Assembly: GCF_001552655.1 (NCBI RefSeq)
Contig: NZ_BCRP01000012.1
Span: 1 to 64,000 of the forward strand
Length of the DNA: 64,000 nt
Source: Alicyclobacillus kakegawensis NBRC 103104
GTDB taxonomy: Bacteria; Bacillota; Bacilli; Alicyclobacillales; Alicyclobacillaceae
Reading direction: 5' to 3'
Numbering within the stretch: the first letter of the stretch is position 1; each line of letters begins with the position of its first letter. The notes under the pieces were generated by a model, which worked only from the letters and a program-made list of their open reading frames with translations, did no database searches and was not told the DNA's origin. This document shows positions 5,272-15,629 of this stretch, piece after piece. A program made the translations under genes and the position numbers.

Positions 5272-6816
5272 GTGCGTGCGCAGGAAGCGGTATTAACCAT
5301 AGATTTGGGCACATCCGCCTGCAAGGCGATGCTGTTTGGCGCAGGTCTCAATCTGCTGCATGGTGTTACCGTTCCGTACCCCCGACAGGTCACGCCCGAC
5401 GGGGAGGTGTGCCAGTTTCCTGATGATTGGATACGCACCCTGAAACAGGCGGTTTCCCGGCTTCTTGGCGAGGCCCCGCCCGCAGCTGTGCGGATGATTG
5501 CCCTAACGTCCCAACGAGAGACGGTGGTGCCGGTGGGAGCGGACATGCGTCCGCTCATGCCTGCCTTGCTGTGGCTAGATAGACGTGGAATTGCCGAGGC
5601 CGGCGCCCTGCAGGACGCCTTTCAAGGCCGAGTGCAGGAGTGGACTGGGCTCGCCCCCGGCGCAGCGTATGCTGCCGGCAAAATCCTTTGGCTGCGCCGC
5701 CGGCGTCCGGACGTGTTCGCCAAAGCTCGCTGGTACATGCAGCCGAAAGACTACATCTTATACTGGTTGTCTGGAGAGGTGGCCACCGACTGGACTTTGG
5801 CCGCCCGCACCCTCCTGTTCGATATCCACCGGCTGGCGTGGCGGCCGGAACTGCTCCAGGCTTGTGAAGTGGGGCTGCATCAGCTGCCGCCGGTGCACTC
5901 GCCGCAGGAGACGGTGGGCCGGTTGTCGCGCACGGCGGCCGGGCAACTGGGCTTGTCGCCGGGCATCCCCGTCCTGCTCGGCGGCGGCGACAGGCCATGC
6001 GAAGTGCTGGGCTCCGGAGTGCGGCCGCAGGAAATCATGGAGTCGTCCGGAACCACCAGCAACATGTCCTGTGAGGTGGAACGCATTGTCCAAGGGGAGT
6101 GCCTGAGCTGCGCCCCGCACGTGTTGGACGGCAAGTGGATAGTGGAGCAAGGGATTTCCGCCTCCGGGGCTGTGCTGGAGTGGGTGACAAGTTTGCTGCG
6201 GGCACCTGCGTCCGGTGCGCAACAGCTTGAACGTGTCCTGGAGTCAGTGGGGCCCGGGGCTGCGGGCGTTCTGATGCTGCCTCTATTCATGGGGCGCAAG
6301 GGTAGCTCCGCGACCGCCAGCGCCACTGGGGTTATCGGCGGATTGACACTGGGGCACAGGCCCGAACACCTGGTACGGGCCGCTTTGGAATCGATTGGCT
6401 ATGAGCTGCGCGCCGTACTCGAGCGGATGCGCCGTTATGTGGAACCCATCCACGCGGTGCGCGTCGTCGGCGGGATGACGGGGAACAGGGCTTGGAACCG
6501 CATGAAAGCGTCCTTGTACGGGGTGCCAGTTCACCAACCGAGGGTTCGACACGCGGCCGCCTACGGCGCTTTTTTGTTGGCCGCCCGGGCCCTGGGCTGG
6601 GTGACCGAAGAGGAGTTGCGATCCGTCAACCCCGTGCAGGAGGAGTATGTTCCGGATTCGCGGGAGCAGGAGGTATACGGGGCCGGGTTCGCGGCTTACC
6701 AAGCGTTTGCGGCCGGCATGCAGGAAATCTGGCCGCGCTTGGATGCTTACCGCCAGCAGGCGATGCGGGCGGATGGCGCCGGGGTGGATGGCGGCGCGTC
6801 CAGGGACCGCGCGTGA
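5272..6816 (+). CDS. FGGY-family carbohydrate kinase
   Basis: This 514-aa protein starts with the FGGY/actin-fold phosphate motif (IDLGTSACKAMLFG, residues 10-23) and has the second-domain features of xylulokinase/gluconokinase-type enzymes (GGGDRPCEVLGSG around residue 240, and a late GGMTGNRAWNRM motif). It should phosphorylate a sugar or sugar acid with ATP in the cytosol. It opens the hexuronate cluster under its own promoter, with GGGGGTG eight nt upstream of the GTG start. Later genes already supply KdgK, so this enzyme probably handles a different entry substrate such as a ketose, pentulose or aldonate. The family alone does not fix the substrate. Confidence 0.8.
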   Translation: MRAQEAVLTIDLGTSACKAMLFGAGLNLLHGVTVPYPRQVTPDGEVCQFPDDWIRTLKQAVSRLLGEAPPAAVRMIALTSQRETVVPVGADMRPLMPALLWLDRRGIAEAGALQDAFQGRVQEWTGLAPGAAYAAGKILWLRRRRPDVFAKARWYMQPKDYILYWLSGEVATDWTLAARTLLFDIHRLAWRPELLQACEVGLHQLPPVHSPQETVGRLSRTAAGQLGLSPGIPVLLGGGDRPCEVLGSGVRPQEIMESSGTTSNMSCEVERIVQGECLSCAPHVLDGKWIVEQGISASGAVLEWVTSLLRAPASGAQQLERVLESVGPGAAGVLMLPLFMGRKGSSATASATGVIGGLTLGHRPEHLVRAALESIGYELRAVLERMRRYVEPIHAVRVVGGMTGNRAWNRMKASLYGVPVHQPRVRHAAAYGAFLLAARALGWVTEEELRSVNPVQEEYVPDSREQEVYGAGFAAYQAFAAGMQEIWPRLDAYRQQAMRADGAGVDGGASRDRA

Positions 6817-6904: not shown

Positions 6905-7696
6905 TTGGCCGTGCTAGGGGAGATGCGCCAGCGCAAGCTGAAGGAGATTTTGCTGAGGGAAGGATCGGTACGTATTGCGGATCTCAAGAGCCGGTTTGGG
7001 GTGTCAGAAGAGACGGTGCGCCGTGACCTGCGCAAGCTGGAGTCGGAGGGTCTGGCGAGGCGCACCCACGGCGGCGCGATGTTGGCCGAGCCGGTGCATG
7101 TCGTGCCGCCGGCACAGCAGCGCATGCACCAAAACGTGGCGGAAAAAGCTGCGGTAGCCGAGCGGGCGGTCGACTTCATTCGCGACGGGAACACGGTGAT
7201 GCTGGACAGCGGCACGACCACGCTCGAGATTGCGCGGCGGTTGGCGGCGCGACCGGTGACGGTGGTGACAAACGACCTGGTCATCGCCGCGGAGCTGGCC
7301 ACGTCGGTCCATGTCCAGTTGGTGGTGCTGGGCGGCACTCACCAGCGGGGCACTCCCTGCGTCGTCGGCCCCGAATGTGTGGAGATGATTGGGCGTTACC
7401 ACGTGGACGTGGTGTTTCTCGGAGCGGGCGGGGTGTCCGTCAACCAAGGACTGACCACGGCTTCCAGCGCGGAGCGGCAGGTGAAACGGGCGATGATGCT
7501 TGCTGGGGACGCGGTCTACTGCGTGGTGGATGGGAGCAAGTTGGGGCGTGCGGCTTTGGTCTCGTACGCGCGTGTGGACGAGGTGGACGGCATCGTGCTG
7601 AACGCGTCGGTCCCGAACGAGGCCGTGGAGCCGCTGCGGCGGCAGGGCGCACAGGTGATTCTGGCAGAAGTTGTAGCGACCGAGAAAGGGGGCTGA
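6905..7696 (+). CDS. DeoR-family transcriptional regulator
   Basis: Residues 6-60 form the DeoR winged helix (recognition region VSEETVRRDLRKLESEG followed by RRTHGGA), and residues 77-235 the sugar-phosphate-sensing DeoR C-terminal domain with the MLDSGTTTLEIA phosphate loop. The family represses carbohydrate operons and is released by a phosphorylated intermediate. The start is TTG 6905, placed after AGGAAAGGAAGA. It lies between the kinase gene and the rest of the uronate cluster, so it most likely controls this cluster; the inverted repeat over the uxaA promoter is a candidate target. Only a 5-bp gap separates it from the M24-like gene. Confidence 0.88.
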   Translation: MAVLGEMRQRKLKEILLREGSVRIADLKSRFGVSEETVRRDLRKLESEGLARRTHGGAMLAEPVHVVPPAQQRMHQNVAEKAAVAERAVDFIRDGNTVMLDSGTTTLEIARRLAARPVTVVTNDLVIAAELATSVHVQLVVLGGTHQRGTPCVVGPECVEMIGRYHVDVVFLGAGGVSVNQGLTTASSAERQVKRAMMLAGDAVYCVVDGSKLGRAALVSYARVDEVDGIVLNASVPNEAVEPLRRQGAQVILAEVVATEKGG

Positions 7697-7701
7697 CGCG
7701 C

Positions 7702-8775
7702 GTGGCGTATACGGACAGAATTGAGCGCGTCCGGTCGATGCTTGAGGAACAAGGTTGGGACGGATTGATCATCGAGCGGGCCATCAATTTGGCGTGGCTG
7801 TTTGGCGGGAGATTCCATGTCAATGTGGCGGCCGAACAGGGATTGGCGGCGGTTTTCATCAGCCAGCAGCGGATAGAAAGCGCTGTCAGCAACATAGAAC
7901 AGGTCCGGCTCGCGGCAGAGGAAGGTCTGTCAGCCGATTCGGTCCATGCTTACCCGTGGTTCGATGGGGCCGCGAGGGAAGCGGTCGTACGCCGGTGGCG
8001 TGAGCAGGGCCGGGTGGTGACCGACAGCGAGGCGGCGGAAGCGATGCTGCGTCTGCGCATCCGGTTGGACGCGGAGCAGGTTGACGCCTATCGCCAGCTC
8101 GGACGGCGGACATCCTGGGCGGTGGAGGAGGCGTGCCGCTTGGCCCGCGCGGAGGACACGGAGGCTGATTTGGCGGCCCGCGTGGCTGCTCTGTGCGTGG
8201 CCCAGGGATTGGACGCGGTGGTGCTCCTGGCCGCCGGCGAGCGCCGCGCGGGCCTGTATCGCCATCCGCTGCCGACCTCCGAGCGGTTGGGACGGTACGC
8301 TATTGTCTCGCTGTGTGCTCGAGGCAGCGGCCTGGTGGCCGCGGCCACACGCACGGTCGCCTTTGCGGGTCTGCCAGAAGAGTTAGCCCGGCGATACGAC
8401 GCGGTGCTGCGCGTGGAGGCCAGGATGCTGGCGGCCACGCAGCCTGGCGTGCCGCTGGCTGAGGTTGTGCGCGAGGCGCAGGCCGCGTACGCGGAGCAGG
8501 GATTTCCTGACGCCTGGACGGAGCATCACCAGGGCGGACTGATTGGATTTCAATCGCGCGAGGTGCGCGCCGACCTGGAGCAATCGTTACCCGTGCCGAG
8601 CCTCGCGGCTGTCGCCTGGAATCCTTCGGTGGCCGGAGCGAAAGCAGAAGATACCTTTCTGATTACCGCATCTGGCCGTGAGTGGTTGACAGGCACGCAT
8701 CATTATCCACAGACCCAGGTCCGGGTTGATCAGGTCACCCTGACGCGGCCTTGGGTATTGGTGAAAAATGCGTAG
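7702..8775 (+). CDS. M24-fold (creatinase/aminopeptidase P-like) protein lacking metal ligands
   Basis: The 357-aa product has a creatinase-type N-terminal domain (about residues 1-130) and an M24 pita-bread domain (about 140-350). In active M24 peptidases two Asp, one His and two Glu bind the metals. Here the segment ending in TRTV carries SLCARGSG and AAATRTV instead of the Asp-bearing motifs, and the usual EPG position reads WNPS; only the EHHQGG His and the last Glu (EDTFLIT) look kept. It is therefore probably not a metallopeptidase. It is co-directional with DeoR (5-bp gap) and uronate genes, so a non-peptidase role in sugar-acid metabolism or sensing is likely. The start is GTG 7702 after GAGAAAGGGGG. 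Confidence 0.75.
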   Translation: MAYTDRIERVRSMLEEQGWDGLIIERAINLAWLFGGRFHVNVAAEQGLAAVFISQQRIESAVSNIEQVRLAAEEGLSADSVHAYPWFDGAAREAVVRRWREQGRVVTDSEAAEAMLRLRIRLDAEQVDAYRQLGRRTSWAVEEACRLARAEDTEADLAARVAALCVAQGLDAVVLLAAGERRAGLYRHPLPTSERLGRYAIVSLCARGSGLVAAATRTVAFAGLPEELARRYDAVLRVEARMLAATQPGVPLAEVVREAQAAYAEQGFPDAWTEHHQGGLIGFQSREVRADLEQSLPVPSLAAVAWNPSVAGAKAEDTFLITASGREWLTGTHHYPQTQVRVDQVTLTRPWVLVKNA

Positions 8776-8792
8776 GACCGATTGAGAGATTA

Positions 8793-8819
8793 TGTGGTAT
8801 AATCCAACACGATACCACA
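8793..8819. promoter_or_regulatory. Operator-like inverted repeat over an extended -10 promoter for uxaA
   Basis: Perfect 8-bp arms TGTGGTAT (8793-8800) and ATACCACA (8812-8819) flank 11 nt. A perfect TATAAT lies at 8798-8803, preceded by TGG (an extended -10), so it straddles the left arm. A repressor on this repeat would block RNA polymerase directly. The DeoR product is the nearest candidate, but the half-site also resembles GntR-type operators. No good -35 box is present, consistent with an extended -10 promoter. Confidence 0.6.
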
Positions 8820-8913
8820 AATCAAAAGGAGGCCGTTGCCGCCGCCGGAGCGCATGCGCCCACAAGCGGTTGGCAGACGGCATCTGTACGCATGGGGCCA
8901 GGGAGGCGAGTGC

Positions 8914-10437
8914 ATGCCGGTAATGGAGGCGGCTGCGCGGCGGGCCTTGCGGATTCACGTGGAGGACAACGTCGCGGTCGTGTTGCAAGCGGTTGCGAAA
9001 GGCGACACGGTGGAACTGGCGGAAGGGCGACTGACGGCCCTTGAAGACATCCCGCGCGGCCACAAGATTGCGCTCAGCGATGTGGCGGTGGGGCAGGACA
9101 TCCTCAAGTACGGCCACCCAATAGGGCGGGCGACGCAGCCGATTCGCCGCGGCGCTTGGGTGCATACGCACAACGTGCAAACGAAATTGGGAGACAAGTT
9201 GTCTTATCAGTATGCGCCGAGCCTTGCCCAGGGTCACATGGAAGGGAATTTGGAGGCCCTGCCGGACATGTTTGAGGGCTACGTGCGCGAGAACGGCGAG
9301 GTGGGAATCCGCAACGAGATCTGGGTGCTGCCCACGGTGGGCTGTGTCAACAAGATGGTGGAGCGTTTGGCGCAGGCGGCGCATGCCGAGTTGGCTGGGG
9401 CTGGGATTGACGGTGTCTACGCCTTTCCCCATCCGTACGGCTGCTCGCAGTTGGGGGATGACCTCGGCTACACACAAAAGGCGATTGCCGGACTGGCCCG
9501 CCACCCCAACGCGGCTGGGGTGCTGGTGGTCGGATTGGGTTGTGAAAACAACCAGATAGATTGGCTGCAGGCCCAGCTTGGCGATGTCCCAGCGGCCAAG
9601 GTTCGCTTCATGACGCTGCAGAGCGTGGAGGACGAGTTCGAGGCTGGCCTTTCGCACCTGCGCCAGTTGGGCGACTACGCCCGCCGGTTCCGCCGCACCT
9701 GGGTCCCGGTGGCCAAGCTGCGCCTTGGGTTGAAGTGCGGGGGATCGGACGGATTTTCGGGCATCACGGCCAATCCGCTCGTGGGCAAGGTGGCTGATCT
9801 GTTCACAAATCGCAGGGCTGCGGCGTTGTTGACCGAGGTGCCGGAGATGTTTGGCGCGGAGACGATTCTCATGAACCGGGCGCAGGACGAACGGACGTTT
9901 TCGGACATTGTGCAGCTCATCAACGATTTCAAGGACTACTACATCCGGCACGGCCAGGTCATTTACGAAAACCCTTCCCCAGGCAACAAGGAAGGCGGAA
10001 TCACGACGCTGGAAGAAAAATCGTTGGGCTGTGTGCAAAAAGGCGGGCACGGCCCGGTGACCGCCGTGCTCCCGTATGGGGATCTCGCCCAGGGTGGTGG
10101 GGTGCAGCTGGTGCAGGCGCCGGGGAACGACTTGGTTTCCGTGACCGCCCTGGCGCTGGCCGGGGCGCAGTTGGTGCTGTTCACCACCGGGCGCGGAACC
10201 CCGTTCGGCGGCCCCGTGCCGACGCTCAAGATTGCCACCAACAGCGACCTGTACGAGCGCAAGCGCCATTGGATGGACTTTGATGCCGGCCGCCTCGTCG
10301 GCGGGGCGTCGATGGTTGACCTGGCGGCCGGGTTGTATCGGCAGATCGTCGATGTGGCTTCGGGCTTGTCGCAGACCCAAAACGAGCGGTTTGGGTACCG
10401 TGAAATCGCGATTTTCAAAGACGGGGTGACGCTGTAG
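8914..10437 (+). CDS. uxaA: Altronate dehydratase
   Basis: The 507-aa protein has the fused layout of UxaA: a small N-terminal SAF-like domain (about residues 10-80, ending near GAWVHTHN) and a large C-terminal dehydratase domain with the GYVRENGEVGIRNEI, HPYGCSQLGDD and GCENNQ motifs. It removes water from D-altronate to give 2-keto-3-deoxy-gluconate in galacturonate breakdown. I chose ATG 8914, which follows GGGAGGCGAG, instead of the earlier frame start at 8836. It is the first gene after the promoter/operator at 8793-8819 and is followed by the cupin isomerase, UxaB, KdgK, KdgA and UxuA. A long open frame on its opposite strand is a shadow. Confidence 0.92.
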   Translation: MPVMEAAARRALRIHVEDNVAVVLQAVAKGDTVELAEGRLTALEDIPRGHKIALSDVAVGQDILKYGHPIGRATQPIRRGAWVHTHNVQTKLGDKLSYQYAPSLAQGHMEGNLEALPDMFEGYVRENGEVGIRNEIWVLPTVGCVNKMVERLAQAAHAELAGAGIDGVYAFPHPYGCSQLGDDLGYTQKAIAGLARHPNAAGVLVVGLGCENNQIDWLQAQLGDVPAAKVRFMTLQSVEDEFEAGLSHLRQLGDYARRFRRTWVPVAKLRLGLKCGGSDGFSGITANPLVGKVADLFTNRRAAALLTEVPEMFGAETILMNRAQDERTFSDIVQLINDFKDYYIRHGQVIYENPSPGNKEGGITTLEEKSLGCVQKGGHGPVTAVLPYGDLAQGGGVQLVQAPGNDLVSVTALALAGAQLVLFTTGRGTPFGGPVPTLKIATNSDLYERKRHWMDFDAGRLVGGASMVDLAAGLYRQIVDVASGLSQTQNERFGYREIAIFKDGVTL

Positions 10438-10511
10438 CCATCAAGGCTGCAAGCGGAGCCGAGGCCAAAAGTCCATCGCTACGCCCAGGTGGCGAGAACG
10501 GGGCACGTTCA

Positions 10512-10535
10512 GGCCGCGCGGGTCATCGCGCGGCC
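10512..10535 (+). other. Strong GC hairpin between uxaA and the iolB-like gene
   Basis: GGCCGCGCG pairs perfectly with CGCGCGGCC around the 6-nt loop GGTCAT, ending 25 nt before the iolB-like ATG. It lacks a T-tract, so it is more likely an mRNA-stability or processing element, or a weak attenuator, than a terminator. Confidence 0.5.
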
Positions 10536-10560
10536 CCAGCACAAATGGAGGGATGGCAAC

Positions 10561-11364
10561 ATGCTGTTGGTCAAGTCTCAGGAGTTCACCGGTTACCGGG
10601 AGTTGGTTGGGCGCACGAACCCAGGCGGACTGCGCTTCCTGCGCTTTGGCGTCCTGCGCCTGGGCCCGGGCGAGCGGCATCAAGACCAGTTTGCGGATGT
10701 GGAGACTGTGTTGCTGCTCTTGTCCGGCCAGTGCGAGGTGGAGGTGGGAGACGCAACCTATCACGGCCTTCAACGCAGCGACGTCTTCGCGGAGCGGGCG
10801 ACTGCCGTCTACGTGCCTGTGCGCGCGCCTTTCACCGTCGCCAACACGGGCGCCGGGCCGCTTGAGGTCGCGGTCTGTCAGGCGCCCGCCAGCGAGGGGC
10901 ACGCACCGTTTGTCGTGCGACCGGATGAGGTGAAGCCTCGCCTCGTCGGCAGGGACAACTACAGCCGGTACGTGCATGACGTGGTGGTCAAGGAGGCAGA
11001 GGGTAAGGTCCAGCGCATCATCGTCGGCGAGACGTTCAACCTGCCGGGCAATTGGTCGAGCTATCCGCCGCACAAGCACGACGATTACCAGCCCGGCGTC
11101 GAGGCGTGCATGGAAGAGGTGTACTACTACCGCTTGAAACCACGGCAGGGATTCGGACTGCAGGCGATTTACACAAAGGATCGCTCCCTCGATGAAGTGT
11201 ACCGGGTGGAGCACGGAGACGTGTTCTTGATACCGCGTGGGTACCACCCGGTGTGCGCGGCCGCCGGGTACGAGCTGTATTACCTGTGGGTCATGGCCGG
11301 GGACATCGACCGGATCATGATTCCGCATGACGATCCGGACCACGCCTGGGTCCACCACGCCTGA
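10561..11364 (+). CDS. iolB: IolB/KduI-like cupin sugar-acid isomerase
   Basis: This 267-aa double cupin matches 5-deoxy-glucuronate isomerase (IolB): the C-terminal cupin has the metal ligands in PPHKHD, MEEVYYYR and PRGYHPV. IolB interconverts 5-deoxy-glucuronate and 5-dehydro-2-deoxy-gluconate in myo-inositol breakdown, and its structural relative KduI acts on 5-keto-4-deoxyuronate. No other inositol gene is nearby, and the gene lies inside a uronate operon, so a uronate or deoxyuronate isomerase role is more likely here (inference). The start is ATG 10561 with GGAGGGATGG upstream, rather than the longer frame to 10489. Confidence 0.8.
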   Translation: MLLVKSQEFTGYRELVGRTNPGGLRFLRFGVLRLGPGERHQDQFADVETVLLLLSGQCEVEVGDATYHGLQRSDVFAERATAVYVPVRAPFTVANTGAGPLEVAVCQAPASEGHAPFVVRPDEVKPRLVGRDNYSRYVHDVVVKEAEGKVQRIIVGETFNLPGNWSSYPPHKHDDYQPGVEACMEEVYYYRLKPRQGFGLQAIYTKDRSLDEVYRVEHGDVFLIPRGYHPVCAAAGYELYYLWVMAGDIDRIMIPHDDPDHAWVHHA

Positions 11365-11429: not shown

Positions 11430-12950
11430 GTGGAGCGTTTGTCGATGCAGTGGTTGAAGCAGCACCAGCCGGATCGGTATGAACAGGTGAGAAGTTGGCC
11501 GGAGCGCATCATCCAGTTTGGCGAAGGCAACTTCCTGCGCGGGTTTGTCGACTGGTTGGTGGACGAGTTGAACGAGCGCGGTCACTTTGGCGGCCGCATC
11601 GTCGTGGTGGCGCCGCGCCGCAGCGGGGCCGACAATGTACGCCGGCTCAACGCTCAGGACGGGCTGTACACGGTGTGGCTGCGCGGGCTGGAGGACGGCC
11701 GGCGGGTGGATGAGGCGCGCGTCATCGCGTCGGTCAGCCGCGCCCTCAACCCGTACACCGATTGGCCGCAAATTTTGCGCTTGGCCGAAGCGCCGGAAAT
11801 CGATATCCTGGTCTCGAACACCACCGAGCGTGGGCTGGTATACGAAAAGGAGGCGCACCATCCGGTGCGGCCGCCCGAGTCCTTCCCCGCCAAGGTGACG
11901 GCGTATCTCTATCACCGCTATCAACACTTTGCCGGTGACGAGCAGGCTGGGATGACGCTCATTCCCTGTGAGTTGATTGACGACAACGGGGACGAATTGC
12001 GCCGTTTGGTGCTGCGACACGCTCGGGAATGGGGGCTGCCGCAGGCGTTTTCAGACTGGGTGGAGCGGGCCAATCGCTTCTGCAACACGCTGGTGGACCG
12101 CATCCTGCCGGGGTATCCAGCCGCGGCGGAGGCGGAGGGATTGTTTGCGCGCATGGGTTACAGGGATGAGTTGTTGACCGTCGGCGAGCCTTATCACCTG
12201 TGGGCCCTCAGCGGCGACGAGCGCCTGCCCGCCCGCTGGCCGTTTTCCAGCCTGGGCTTCAACGTCCATATGGTGGACGATGTGACCCCGTTCCGGCTGC
12301 AGAAGGTGCGCATCCTCAACGGGCTGCACACGGCCATGTCGGCCTTGGCGCTGCTGGCCGGCCGACGGACGGTGGGCGAGGTGATGGCCGACACATATTT
12401 CTCGCGATTTGTCAGGGGGCTTGCCGAGGCGGAAATCGTCCCGGCCCTCCACTCGGAGTCGCTCCCGTCGCCCGTGTTGCGGTCGTTTGCCGCCCAGGTG
12501 TTCGAGCGTTTTCAAAACCCGTATCTGGAGCACGAGCTGTTGAGCATCACCCTCAATACCATCGCCAAGACGCGGGTACGCCTGGTGCCGACGCTGATCT
12601 CGTACGTCGACCGCTACGGCGTGCTGCCTCCGCGTCTGGTCTGCGCCTTGGCCGCGTTGCTGATGTATTACCCGCGGGCTCAGGCCGAAGGCTGGCCGAT
12701 TCGCGACGATGAGCGGCAGGTGCAGGTCCTGCTTGACGCTTGGAAGGGCGAGCCGGAGGTGGGGCTGTTGGCCGTCGTGGAGAGTCTCTTGGCGCGGGAG
12801 GAGATGTGGGGAGTGAACCTGCGGAGACTGCCTGGATTGGCTCCGGCCGTCGCCGAGAACATCCGAGCGATTCAATCGGAGGGGGCGGAGGCGGTGGTCC
12901 GCCGGGTGGCACATGCGTCGGCGCCCGCCCACGAGCAGGGGAGGTTTTAG
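11430..12950 (+). CDS. uxaB: Tagaturonate/fructuronate reductase
   Basis: The 506-aa protein belongs to the long-chain mannitol dehydrogenase family. It has an N-terminal Rossmann start (IIQFGEGNFLRGFVDWL, residues 28-44) and the catalytic KVRILNGLH motif (K-x4-N-x2-H) near residue 290. UxaB reduces D-tagaturonate to D-altronate with NADH, and the related UxuB reduces D-fructuronate to D-mannonate. Because both UxaA and UxuA are encoded here but only one reductase, this enzyme may serve both branches (inference). AAGGAGG lies eight nt upstream of GTG 11430, and the next gene starts 5 nt after its stop. Confidence 0.88.
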   Translation: MERLSMQWLKQHQPDRYEQVRSWPERIIQFGEGNFLRGFVDWLVDELNERGHFGGRIVVVAPRRSGADNVRRLNAQDGLYTVWLRGLEDGRRVDEARVIASVSRALNPYTDWPQILRLAEAPEIDILVSNTTERGLVYEKEAHHPVRPPESFPAKVTAYLYHRYQHFAGDEQAGMTLIPCELIDDNGDELRRLVLRHAREWGLPQAFSDWVERANRFCNTLVDRILPGYPAAAEAEGLFARMGYRDELLTVGEPYHLWALSGDERLPARWPFSSLGFNVHMVDDVTPFRLQKVRILNGLHTAMSALALLAGRRTVGEVMADTYFSRFVRGLAEAEIVPALHSESLPSPVLRSFAAQVFERFQNPYLEHELLSITLNTIAKTRVRLVPTLISYVDRYGVLPPRLVCALAALLMYYPRAQAEGWPIRDDERQVQVLLDAWKGEPEVGLLAVVESLLAREEMWGVNLRRLPGLAPAVAENIRAIQSEGAEAVVRRVAHASAPAHEQGRF

Positions 12951-12955
12951 ACACG

Positions 12956-13927
12956 GTGACAGCGCGGAGTGTACTGACATTTGGAGAACCACTGGTGGCG
13001 ATGGTCCCCAGTCACCCCGGGGCCTACTGCGAAGGTTCGCCGCTGACTCCGTACGCGGCAGGGGCAGAACTGAACACCGCCGTGGGTTTGGTCAGGCTGG
13101 GCGTCGAAGCGGCGTTTGCCGCGGCTGTTGGCCAAGATCCGTGGGGGCAACTGTTGATTCGCCAGGCCCGGGCGGAAGGGATTGACGTGCGCTGGGTGCA
13201 AGAGTCGGAGGCTCCGACCGCTTTGTTGTTCAAACAGTGGAGCGGGCTCCAACAGGCGACCTCAGTGTACTATTACCGTTCCACGTCTCCGATGGCGCAG
13301 GGACTCTGGGACGTGCGCCCGCTCGCCCGGGAAGTGGCGGCCGGGCGTTACCGCTGGGTGCATGCGACCGGAATCACCTGGATGCTCGGCGCCCAGGCCA
13401 GGGAGGCCGCAGACGACCTGCTGGACGCGGCCAGGACCGGAGGGAGCACCGTCTCGTTCGACGTGAACATCCGCTACAAACTGGCCGACAAGCCGGCTTG
13501 GAGAAGCTTGGTGGATCACGTCTTGCCCCGCTTGGACTGGTTCTTCCTCGGCGATGAGGAAGCCATGGCCCTGTTTGGCACCAAAGCGGCGGACGCGGTG
13601 GAGCGGGCGGCGCGTGGGCTTGGATTTCTCGGCCAAGGGGTTGTGGTCAAATGGGGGGCGGAAGGTGCCCAGGTGAGCGAAGGCGGGCGCCTCACCCAAG
13701 TCCCCGCTTGTCCGGTACCACGCGTGGTCGATACGGTCGGCGCCGGGGATGGCTTTAACGCCGGCTTTATCGCCGGCCTGATGGAAGGCTGGCCCATCGA
13801 GCAGGCGGCGCGCCTGGGCGCGGTGGTCGGCGCCTACGCGGTCACCCGGGTCGGCGACCATACCGGCTATCCTTCCCGCGCCGAGGCGTTGGCGGAGCTG
13901 AAAGGAACGGAAGGGGTATGGAGATGA
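12956..13927 (+). CDS. kdgK: 2-keto-3-deoxygluconate kinase (PfkB family)
   Basis: The 323-aa protein shows the ribokinase/PfkB signatures: an early FGEPLVAMVP strand, the GGAELNTA-like sugar loop (here AGAELNTAVGLVRLG), and the C-terminal GAGDGFNAGF catalytic/anion-hole motif near residue 262. It phosphorylates KDG, made by UxaA and UxuA, to KDPG for the next gene product. The GTG at 12956 follows a GGGGAGG ribosome site; the frame is open far upstream inside uxaB, but the family starts here. Its last 10 nt overlap kdgA. The position between the dehydratases and the aldolase makes the assignment secure. Confidence 0.9.
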   Translation: MTARSVLTFGEPLVAMVPSHPGAYCEGSPLTPYAAGAELNTAVGLVRLGVEAAFAAAVGQDPWGQLLIRQARAEGIDVRWVQESEAPTALLFKQWSGLQQATSVYYYRSTSPMAQGLWDVRPLAREVAAGRYRWVHATGITWMLGAQAREAADDLLDAARTGGSTVSFDVNIRYKLADKPAWRSLVDHVLPRLDWFFLGDEEAMALFGTKAADAVERAARGLGFLGQGVVVKWGAEGAQVSEGGRLTQVPACPVPRVVDTVGAGDGFNAGFIAGLMEGWPIEQAARLGAVVGAYAVTRVGDHTGYPSRAEALAELKGTEGVWR

Positions 13928-14580
13928 GGAGCGAAACGACGGGGCGCCTGGTTGAGCGCATCGGAGAGGCGGGCGTCATCGCTGTGCTGCGCCGACTGCC
14001 CGGCGACGCGGTGCATGGGGTCGTGGAGGCGTTGCTGGAAGGGGGCGTGAAGGCGGTCGAATTGACGATGGACACACCGGCCGCAGCCGAGGTGATAGCG
14101 ACCATCCGGGAGCGCCTGGGCGGGGAGCTGCTGCTCGGTGCGGGAACGGTGATGACGGCGGGGCAGGTTAAAGAGGCCATTGCGGCCGGGGCGGATTTTC
14201 TCGTCGGGCCGCATTTTGACCCGGAGCTGGTCGAGGCGGCGCGGGAACAGGGCCATCTGTACATACCTGGTGTCCTTACAGCCAGTGAGGCGGCCGGAGC
14301 CCTGCGGACGGGGGCGGAGGTGTTGAAACTGTTCCCTGCGGGGCCGCTTGGACCCGGATACCTGAAAGATTTGCTGGGGCCGTTCCGAGGCACGCTGTTT
14401 GTACCCACCGGCGGCATCCGGCCGGATGAGGTGGGGGTTTACCTGGCAGCCGGCGCCCTGGCGGTGGGCGTCGGCAGCGCCCTGACCCCCCAAGACGCGG
14501 TGGCCGCAGGGGACTTTGCCCGCGTGCGGGAACTGGCGGCAACGGTCGTCCGGCTGGTGGAGGAGGCCCGCCGGGGATGA
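13918..14580 (+). CDS. kdgA: KDPG/KHG aldolase
   Basis: The 220-aa TIM-barrel protein has the class I aldolase residues of the Eda family: Glu48 in AVELTMDTP, the Schiff-base Lys137 in VLKLFPAG, and the phosphate-binding PTGGI loop near residue 163. It splits 2-keto-3-deoxy-6-phosphogluconate into pyruvate and glyceraldehyde-3-phosphate, the end of this uronate pathway. ATG 13918 follows GGAACGGAAGGGG and overlaps the kdgK end. Its own stop overlaps the uxuA start (ATGA), indicating coupled translation. Confidence 0.92.
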   Translation: MEMRSETTGRLVERIGEAGVIAVLRRLPGDAVHGVVEALLEGGVKAVELTMDTPAAAEVIATIRERLGGELLLGAGTVMTAGQVKEAIAAGADFLVGPHFDPELVEAAREQGHLYIPGVLTASEAAGALRTGAEVLKLFPAGPLGPGYLKDLLGPFRGTLFVPTGGIRPDEVGVYLAAGALAVGVGSALTPQDAVAAGDFARVRELAATVVRLVEEARRG

Positions 14581-15629
14581 AGATGTCCTTCCGCTGGTAC
14601 GGCCACGATGATCCGGTCCGTCTCTGGCAGATCCGCCAAATCCCCGGCATGGTGGGGGTTGTCAGCGCACTCTACACCGTCCCGGTCGGGGAGGTGTGGC
14701 CGGTTGAAGGCATCGCAGCCCTGAAACGGGAGATCGCCGAGCAGGGTTTAGAGCTGACGGTGATCGAGAGCGTGCCTGTGCACGAGGACATCAAGCTGGG
14801 GCGGCCGTCCCGCGACCGTTACATCGAGAATTTCATCAGCACTGTGCGCCGCTTGGGACAGGCCGGCATCCAGACGGTCTGTTATAACTTCATGCCGGTC
14901 TTCGATTGGACCCGATCCCGCCTGGACTATCGATTGCCGGACGGATCGCTGACGCTGGCTTATGACGAGGACGAGGTCGCGCGCATGGACCCGCTTGGTG
15001 GGGAGTGGAAGCTGCCGGGATGGGACGCCAGCTACGGTGACGACGAGTTGGAGGGCCTGATGCGGGCGTACCGGGAGGTTGACGCCGAGACGCTTTGGAC
15101 CAACCTGGCGTACTTCATCCGGGCGGTCGCCCCGGCGGCCCAGGAGGCGAGGGTGAAGCTCGCGGTGCACCCGGATGATCCCCCCTGGCCTGTGTTCGGC
15201 TTGCCCCGCATCCTCGGCGACGGCCCGGGCCTGCGGCGGCTGCTCGACCTGTGCGATGTGGCCAGCAACGGGTTGTGCGTCTGCACCGGGTCTCTCGGCG
15301 CCAACCCGGACAACGATATCCCGTCGCTGCTGCGGGAATTCCTGGCGCGGGGGCGCGTTCATTTCGTGCATGCGCGCAACGTGCGCGTGACCGGGCCCAG
15401 ACGGTTTCACGAGAGTGGGCACCGAAGCGCGGACGGATCGGTCGATATGTACGAGGTGATGAAAGCCCTGGCCGAGTTCGACTACGACGGGCCAATTCGG
15501 CCGGACCACGGGCGCATGATATGGGGGGAACGGGGCCGACCCGGCTACGGCTTGTACGACCGGGCGCTGGGGGCGGCCTACCTGAACGGGCTGTGGGAGG
15601 CAGCCAGCCGCCAGCGCACCGGCTCCTAA
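14577..15629 (+). CDS. uxuA: Mannonate dehydratase
   Basis: The 350-aa protein matches the UxuA family from its first residues (SFRWYGHDDPVRLWQIRQIPG) through the NFMPVFDWTRS segment and C-terminal metal-site motifs (LAVHPDDPP, RNVR, RPDHGRMIWGE). It dehydrates D-mannonate to 2-keto-3-deoxygluconate, the glucuronate branch feeding the same kinase and aldolase. It starts in an ATGA overlap with kdgA and is the last gene of the operon. No uronate isomerase (UxaC) or mannonate oxidoreductase distinct from UxaB is found nearby. Confidence 0.92.
   Translation: MKMSFRWYGHDDPVRLWQIRQIPGMVGVVSALYTVPVGEVWPVEGIAALKREIAEQGLELTVIESVPVHEDIKLGRPSRDRYIENFISTVRRLGQAGIQTVCYNFMPVFDWTRSRLDYRLPDGSLTLAYDEDEVARMDPLGGEWKLPGWDASYGDDELEGLMRAYREVDAETLWTNLAYFIRAVAPAAQEARVKLAVHPDDPPWPVFGLPRILGDGPGLRRLLDLCDVASNGLCVCTGSLGANPDNDIPSLLREFLARGRVHFVHARNVRVTGPRRFHESGHRSADGSVDMYEVMKALAEFDYDGPIRPDHGRMIWGERGRPGYGLYDRALGAAYLNGLWEAASRQRTGS

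Follow-up and report, generated by a model that had tools for sequence, protein, structure and literature searches.

A uronate-operon protein of the M24 fold with four replaced metal ligands: a putative aldose 1-epimerase

The gene at positions 7702–8775 of the window (the whole 64,000-nucleotide stretch of Alicyclobacillus kakegawensis DNA that was analysed) encodes a protein, called here M24L, in which four of the five metal ligands of M24 peptidases are replaced. We consider it probable, from sequence comparison, that M24L is a metal-free aldose 1-epimerase (anomerase), acting here on a hexuronate and feeding the adjacent KduI/IolB-like isomerase. With a little less confidence, we think that it belongs to a widespread group of metal-free aldose anomerases on the M24 fold, which displaced GalM in several lineages, diversified by sugar and serve in ring opening in isomerase operons. 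The sugars would be galactose, xylose and uronates, and perhaps also fucose, arabinose and glucose. The hosts would be Bacilli, Deinococcota, Cyanobacteria, Pantoea and haloarchaea, where the proteins are annotated as metallopeptidases. Four observations underlie this reading and come from the sequences themselves, namely the loss of the four ligands, the conservation of other residues, the operon contexts and the absence of GalM where M24L is linked to galK.

The gene and its uronate operon

The open reading frame is intact, comprises 357 amino acids and starts with GTG at 7702; AAAGGGGG lies a few bases 5′ of this start. The gene and its surroundings are as follows:

5272..6816, + strand, FGGY-family sugar kinase (XylB model 268.9 bits, under the cut-off of 380)
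6905..7696, + strand, DeoR-family regulator (domain matches), ending 5 bp before M24L
7702..8775, + strand, M24L, the subject of this study (Creatinase_N and M24 domains, four of five metal ligands replaced)
8793..8819, + strand, perfect 8-bp inverted repeat around an extended -10-like TGTGGTATAAT, between M24L and uxaA
8836..10437, + strand, UxaA-type altronate/galactarate dehydratase (domain match)
10489..11364, + strand, KduI/IolB-family protein, candidate uronate isomerase (Pfam KduI 279 bits; TIGR04378 242.6 bits, cut-off 205)
11430..12950, + strand, UxaB, tagaturonate reductase (NF002969 590.7 bits, cut-off 359)
12740..13927, + strand, PfkB-family kinase, probably KDG kinase (domain and profile matches)
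13918..14580, + strand, KDPG/KHG aldolase (TIGR01182 191.4 bits, cut-off 156)
14577..15629, + strand, UxuA, mannonate dehydratase (NF003027 465.9 bits, cut-off 191)

The preliminary description had placed the gene 5 bp after a DeoR gene and before uxaA, in uronate surroundings, and the gene calls and domain matches confirmed this position. The FGGY kinase, which adjoins the DeoR gene in the uronate operon, received no equivalog assignment in NCBIfam. The listed start of the PfkB reading frame overlaps uxaB, and homology begins near residue 73–78. The uxaA reading frame as listed starts with TTG at 8836; judging by homology, an ATG near 8914, preceded by GGGAGG, may be the true start. The repeat at 8793–8819 (0.07 expected by chance, with up to 3 mismatches) is conserved in its left half, and not in its right arm, in loci L003 and L004. 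A putative promoter of uxaA's own may lie there.

UxaC was searched for in the source genome and is absent. Judging by gene content, the KduI/IolB-like protein seems to replace it as the uronate isomerase. E. coli KduI, which belongs to the family of this neighbour gene and is no relative of M24L, is proposed, in the portion of the source available, to isomerise galacturonate and glucuronate (PMC3578941). The clade of the window's M24L has 14 members (tree support 84). In all of them a gene of the KduI/IolB family lies within the cluster or a few genes from it, and UxaC is absent from 12 of the 14 genomes (it is present in G043 and G048). Among 299 Bacilli genomes, UxaC occurs in one (G216) of the 10 UxaB genomes that carry M24L by uronate genes, versus 41 of the 59 other UxaB genomes. 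However, UxaB also occurs without UxaC where M24L is lacking: in ten genomes sharing the window's family code (G005, G015, G020, G026 and G029–G034), a KduI/IolB match lies no more than about 130 bp from the uxaB match, and both UxaC and M24L are missing. Because of these ten genomes, we assign the isomerase step to the KduI/IolB-like protein, and M24L is probably not the isomerase. It would then be an accessory protein that makes the right form of the substrate available.

Domains, fold and the former metal site

Pfam recognises Creatinase_N in residues 6–122 of M24L (23.9 bits; cut-off 22) and Peptidase_M24 (PF00557) in residues 129–288 (49.2 bits; gathering cut-off 23), so that the two-domain M24 architecture described earlier is indeed kept. 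Up to E 0.1, the M24 and Creatinase_N families alone matched in Pfam, with no match to PF01263, while NCBIfam gave two matches, of 26.2 and 24.8 bits, both far under cut-off. The PDB neighbours found by sequence and profile search are prolidases and related M24 enzymes. An AlphaFold2 model built from four sequences (M24L of the window, L003, L004 and L005) has a mean pLDDT of 61, with a C-domain of fair and an N-domain of poor quality. When the Foldseek matches were re-examined with VIA-align, the C-domain of the model superposed on prolidases with Z about 24, on creatinase (1chm) with Z 21.3 (rmsd 2.4, 219 residues) and on 6yo9 with Z 21.7. The model indicates that the catalytic domain is a pita-bread fold.

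The metal site was examined in an alignment of 68 family members and, from related genomes, 14 true M24 peptidases. One of these peptidases (G000:C4) is the only other match in the source genome, and a weak one (E 1.8e-4). Five aligned columns read D, D, H, E and E in all 14 peptidases, and we take these to be the metal ligands of M24. In the window's protein the same columns read S203, A214, G279, N307 and E316, and hence four of the five ligands are gone. Across the 68 members the first column holds V, S or T in 65 (A in two more) and the second N, S or A in all; the last three are invariably G, N and E. The loss of four ligands is therefore common to the whole family, and the earlier statement that at least three are replaced is upheld in a stronger form.

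The stretches with the D-D and His motifs align to true M24 sequences without gaps, and a search of the alignment for ligands reappearing at shifted positions recovered none. The preliminary description had also pointed to the His of EHHQGG as kept. It is present (H276, in 67 of 68 members), but not as a retained metal ligand: in the ungapped pairing of HHQGGxxG with HRTGHGxG, the ligand His falls on G279, and 13 of the 14 true peptidases have R in the column of H276. On this alignment, H276 is a family-specific residue. In addition, the His of the "HE" motif, found in all 14 true peptidases, is R286 in all 68 members. The spacings 203–214, 275–279 and 279–286 in M24L match those of E. coli aminopeptidase P at 260–271 (11), 350–354 (4) and 354–361 (7). 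These positions were taken from residues named in the titles of mutant structures, and which of them bind metal is our assumption.

Outside the ligand columns, conservation is high. In the N-domain, R69 and W86 are found in 68/68 members and W32, E66 and E73 in 67/68, and in the C-domain R217, R286, N307, K314 and E316 reach 68/68, H188 and H276 67/68, and D317 66/68. Because H188, E316 and other polar residues are conserved despite the ligand loss, the site looks, at the level of sequence, like a remade and constrained active site and not like decay. In the phylogenetic tree, the 68 members are split from the 14 true peptidases at SH-aLRT 100.

M24L thus shares with M24B prolidase/aminopeptidase P (PF00557 with PF01321) the two domains, the pita-bread fold (C-domain Z about 24) and the residues H188, R217, E316 and D317. 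It differs from them in the four replaced ligands, in the Arg at the His of the HE motif, in a Lys for the Arg before the last Glu and in its location in sugar operons. Creatinase and the ectoine hydrolase DoeA are metal-free M24 hydrolases, which use the pocket independently of metal. They share the fold of M24L (1chm, 6yo9), and M24L likewise keeps a His and the last Glu (H188 and E316) without the metal set, if H188 does, as we assume, occupy the place of the catalytic His in creatinase, a protein outside our alignment. The earlier suggestion of metal-free catalysis in the manner of creatinase fits these two residues, the parallel itself being presumed. In contrast, sequence similarity is weak (DoeA at E about 0.5, creatinase absent from the match list), and the context of M24L is sugar, not creatine or ectoine.

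Distribution, sugar operons and the occurrence of GalM

Across a set of 61 related genomes, the full-length relatives of M24L show 32–100% identity. Among the 299 Bacilli genomes, the family occurs in 37 (E up to 1e-30), always with at least 318 bits save for one fragment in G055 (143 codons), and leaving out this genome alters the contrast with GalM little. A search of a plasmid collection gave 47 matching records (E up to 1e-5); the weakest among the best 40 of these 47 resembles ordinary M24. Twelve plasmid records were examined, from Thermus, Deinococcus, two cyanobacteria, Pantoea and haloarchaea. Public annotation calls the protein an M24 family metallopeptidase in 11 of them and an aminopeptidase P N-terminal domain protein in one. 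One scan of viral_contigs found no viral relatives.

Labels for neighbouring genes came from BLAST comparison with sugar-operon proteins of E. coli and with proteins from some of these loci. Since the reference set was partly drawn from the studied loci, the labelling is biased to recognise such genes. Moreover, the gene caller was home-made, and some genes were missed or mislabelled: galK of L069 was seen only by a galactokinase profile search, and in L027 the counterpart of the KduI/IolB gene at 10489 was dropped from the neighbourhood set, yet is present there.

Within four genes of M24L, 40 of the 68 loci carry a sugar label (19 galactose, 15 uronate, 6 xylose) and 28 carry none of the three. 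The labels cluster on the M24L tree, with 14 changes versus a shuffled mean of 33.5. With the identical reference set, a labelled neighbour was found for 0 of 14 true M24 peptidases, several of whose stretches are short. The preliminary description would have been contradicted by homologues lying mainly beside peptide genes; no peptide-utilisation pattern was seen among the labelled neighbours, many neighbours being unlabelled. No creatinine, creatine or ectoine context was found either, and the annotated neighbours in the examined plasmid records include no creatine gene.

Several gene orders recur. The order galT-galK-galE-M24L-ROK is found in six loci (L072, L076, L084, L086, L088 and L090). 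In L097 and L098, ROK is followed by M24L-xylA-xylB, and in Thermus the order is xylose transporter genes-ROK-xylA-xylB-M24L. In E. coli, galM and fucU come after the kinase gene, and M24L occupies the same post-kinase slot in galactose operons and in the Thermus xylose operons. Elsewhere, malQ overlaps M24L (Nostoc), a glucoamylase gene lies two genes away (Gloeothece), M24L stands between GMC and SDR genes (Pantoea) and arabinofuranosidases are nearby (four haloarchaea). In Deinococcus, M24L follows ALDH, and L-fucose isomerase is encoded some 5 kb off on the opposite strand. Among the annotated plasmid neighbours in Natrinema, a sugar gene was looked for and none was found.

The relation to GalM was studied in the 299 Bacilli genomes, with galactokinase defined by TIGR00131 at E up to 1e-40 (161 genomes) and the GalM family by PF01263 (168 genomes). 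M24L was counted as gal-linked when its coordinates placed it within 10 kb of galK on the same contig, which gave 18 genomes; one of these, G090, was counted from its labelled neighbourhood and not from galK coordinates. The result for DISPLACEMENT of GalM was as follows: PF01263 occurs in 125 of the 131 galactokinase genomes without M24L versus 1 of the 18 gal-linked ones (G067, E 2.6e-28). Where M24L lies away from galK, PF01263 is present in 10 of 12 galactokinase genomes. The Fisher p for 18 versus 131 genomes is 1.8e-16, which is not to be taken literally because the genomes are related.

The 18 gal-linked genomes span nine family codes, and the two proteins are swapped even within families. 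In f12, within one genus, G162 has M24L without GalM and G231 GalM without M24L; the same M24L versus GalM contrast is seen in f18 (G289 vs G176), f31 (G090, G120, G134 and G225 vs G242 and G250) and f2 (G039 vs G037). The exception is f15, with both proteins in G067 and GalM alone in G118, G204 and G272. Six galactokinase genomes (G038, G124, G137, G144, G154 and G301) have neither protein, possibly owing to another mutarotase or secondary loss. The association is weaker when not conditioned on galactokinase (PF01263 in 13 of 37 M24L genomes vs 155 of 262 others, p = 0.008). As an occurrence pattern, displacement of GalM shows up in the galactose clade of Bacilli alone, and it is in this clade that M24L replaces GalM in galactokinase genomes as a mutarotase would. 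M24L of the galactose clade and GalM (PF01263) have in common the operon slot and mutually exclusive occurrence; on the other hand, M24L has no PF01263 match and the two folds are unrelated.

Candidate reaction and competing explanations

In the reading that we favour, a clade of the M24 fold would have lost its dinuclear metal site and given rise to metal-free aldose 1-epimerases. H188 and E316 would serve as acid/base residues and, together with H276, R217, R286, K314, W32, E66 and R69, would open the ring of the free aldose. In kinase operons M24L might provide the anomer that GalK, for instance, requires; in isomerase operons it might provide the open-chain form that XylA, for instance, requires. 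In the window, the substrate is likely a hexuronate (galacturonate or glucuronate), which would pass to the KduI/IolB-like protein in place of UxaC and then to UxaB, UxaA, KDG kinase and KDPG aldolase. The reaction, the part played by each residue and the substrate used in the uronate clade are our inferences, and for the window the substrate is suggested by the operon.

There are precedents for parts of this scheme. For GalM, an available extract proposes acid-base catalysis by a His and a Glu, with a second His for binding (PMC5902678). At the former M24 site, the M24L family nearly always has two His (H188 and H276) and always a Glu (E316), a set that resembles the one proposed for GalM. 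For YhcH, the accessible text reports that an anomerase can serve to provide open-chain sugar, as shown with NanA (PMC8141875). The sialic-acid anomerases YhcH and NanM thus serve an open-chain enzyme, the role proposed for M24L in isomerase operons. They belong to other families, however, and YhcH contains Zn, according to the same partial text. Two findings count against a simple transfer of the function to the window: its uronate clade is only 32–36% identical to galactose-clade members, and the source genome has a PF01263 protein elsewhere (G000:C4:11563). Other findings weigh against the anomerase reading more broadly: the 28 loci with none of the three sugar labels, the Natrinema locus, the joint presence of galK-linked M24L and PF01263 in G067, and the six galactokinase genomes that lack both proteins.

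The preliminary description had envisaged a C-N, lactone or sugar-acid hydrolase, or a sensor. Both fit less well than an anomerase, because galT-galK-galE and xylA-xylB operons contain no lactone step and GalM is replaced. A creatinase-type metal-free hydrolase of a sugar lactone, glycosylamine or other sugar derivative would agree with the creatinase fold and the retained H188 and E316, and some homologues lie near oxidoreductases (Gfo/Idh, GMC, SDR, ALDH) or an SMP-30 lactonase. We nevertheless regard it as unlikely, since it leaves the exclusion of GalM unexplained and the galactose and xylose operons offer it neither lactone nor C-N steps. A non-catalytic sensor, chaperone or regulator of sugar operons is more doubtful still. 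M24L often adjoins DeoR, ROK or LacI regulators, and pseudoenzymes of the M24 fold exist, for example EBP1/PA2G4 (PMC3888471, as far as its available part goes). However, the adjacent regulator families vary, a fixed acid/base set is maintained in the former catalytic pocket and the protein replaced, GalM, is an enzyme.

A uronate (aldose-ketose) isomerase replacing UxaC, to which we give just as little credence as to the sensor, would account for the scarcity of UxaC both in the clade of the window and among UxaB genomes with uronate-linked M24L. The ten genomes with KduI/IolB by uxaB and neither UxaC nor M24L speak against it, and we set it aside on their account; furthermore, xylA already adjoins M24L in xylose loci, and galactose breakdown via GalK requires no isomerase. 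That alignment errors disguise an ordinary M24 peptidase is scarcely conceivable. The Pfam match and the prevailing metallopeptidase annotation would favour this, but four ligands are absent from 68/68 members in motifs aligned without gaps, and we rejected it on these columns.

A search of the PMC full-text literature by title and start of abstract, which leaves subscription papers mostly outside, found no M24-fold protein with an assigned mutarotase role. In the portion available of the Thermus brockianus genome paper, the xylose genes are described without the M24L gene (PMC5292009). The fold and the type of reaction are each known, and their combination would be new; M24L may represent an enzyme family, so far unrecognised, that reuses an old protease fold. 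If M24L proteins are aldose anomerases, many sequences annotated as M24 metallopeptidases would be sugar mutarotases, the mutarotase that many galactose operons seem to lack would be identified and a metal-free activity other than hydrolysis would be added to the M24 fold. The findings would also point to a uronate pathway in which a KduI/IolB-like protein takes the place of UxaC. It would further become testable whether catabolic anomerases exist to feed open-chain sugars to isomerases, an idea that the authors of PMC8141875, in the part available, raise for fucose and rhamnose mutarotases.

Two further gene arrangements were observed. On the Pantoea plasmids (L061, 5362–8867; L063, 5368–8873), M24L is part of a unit MFS-GMC oxidoreductase-M24L-SDR, which is perhaps a sugar-oxidation route. 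An MreB-like gene immediately follows M24L in L042 (8824–11062) and L043 (8071–10267), and in L036 (6341–10425) it lies a few genes past M24L.
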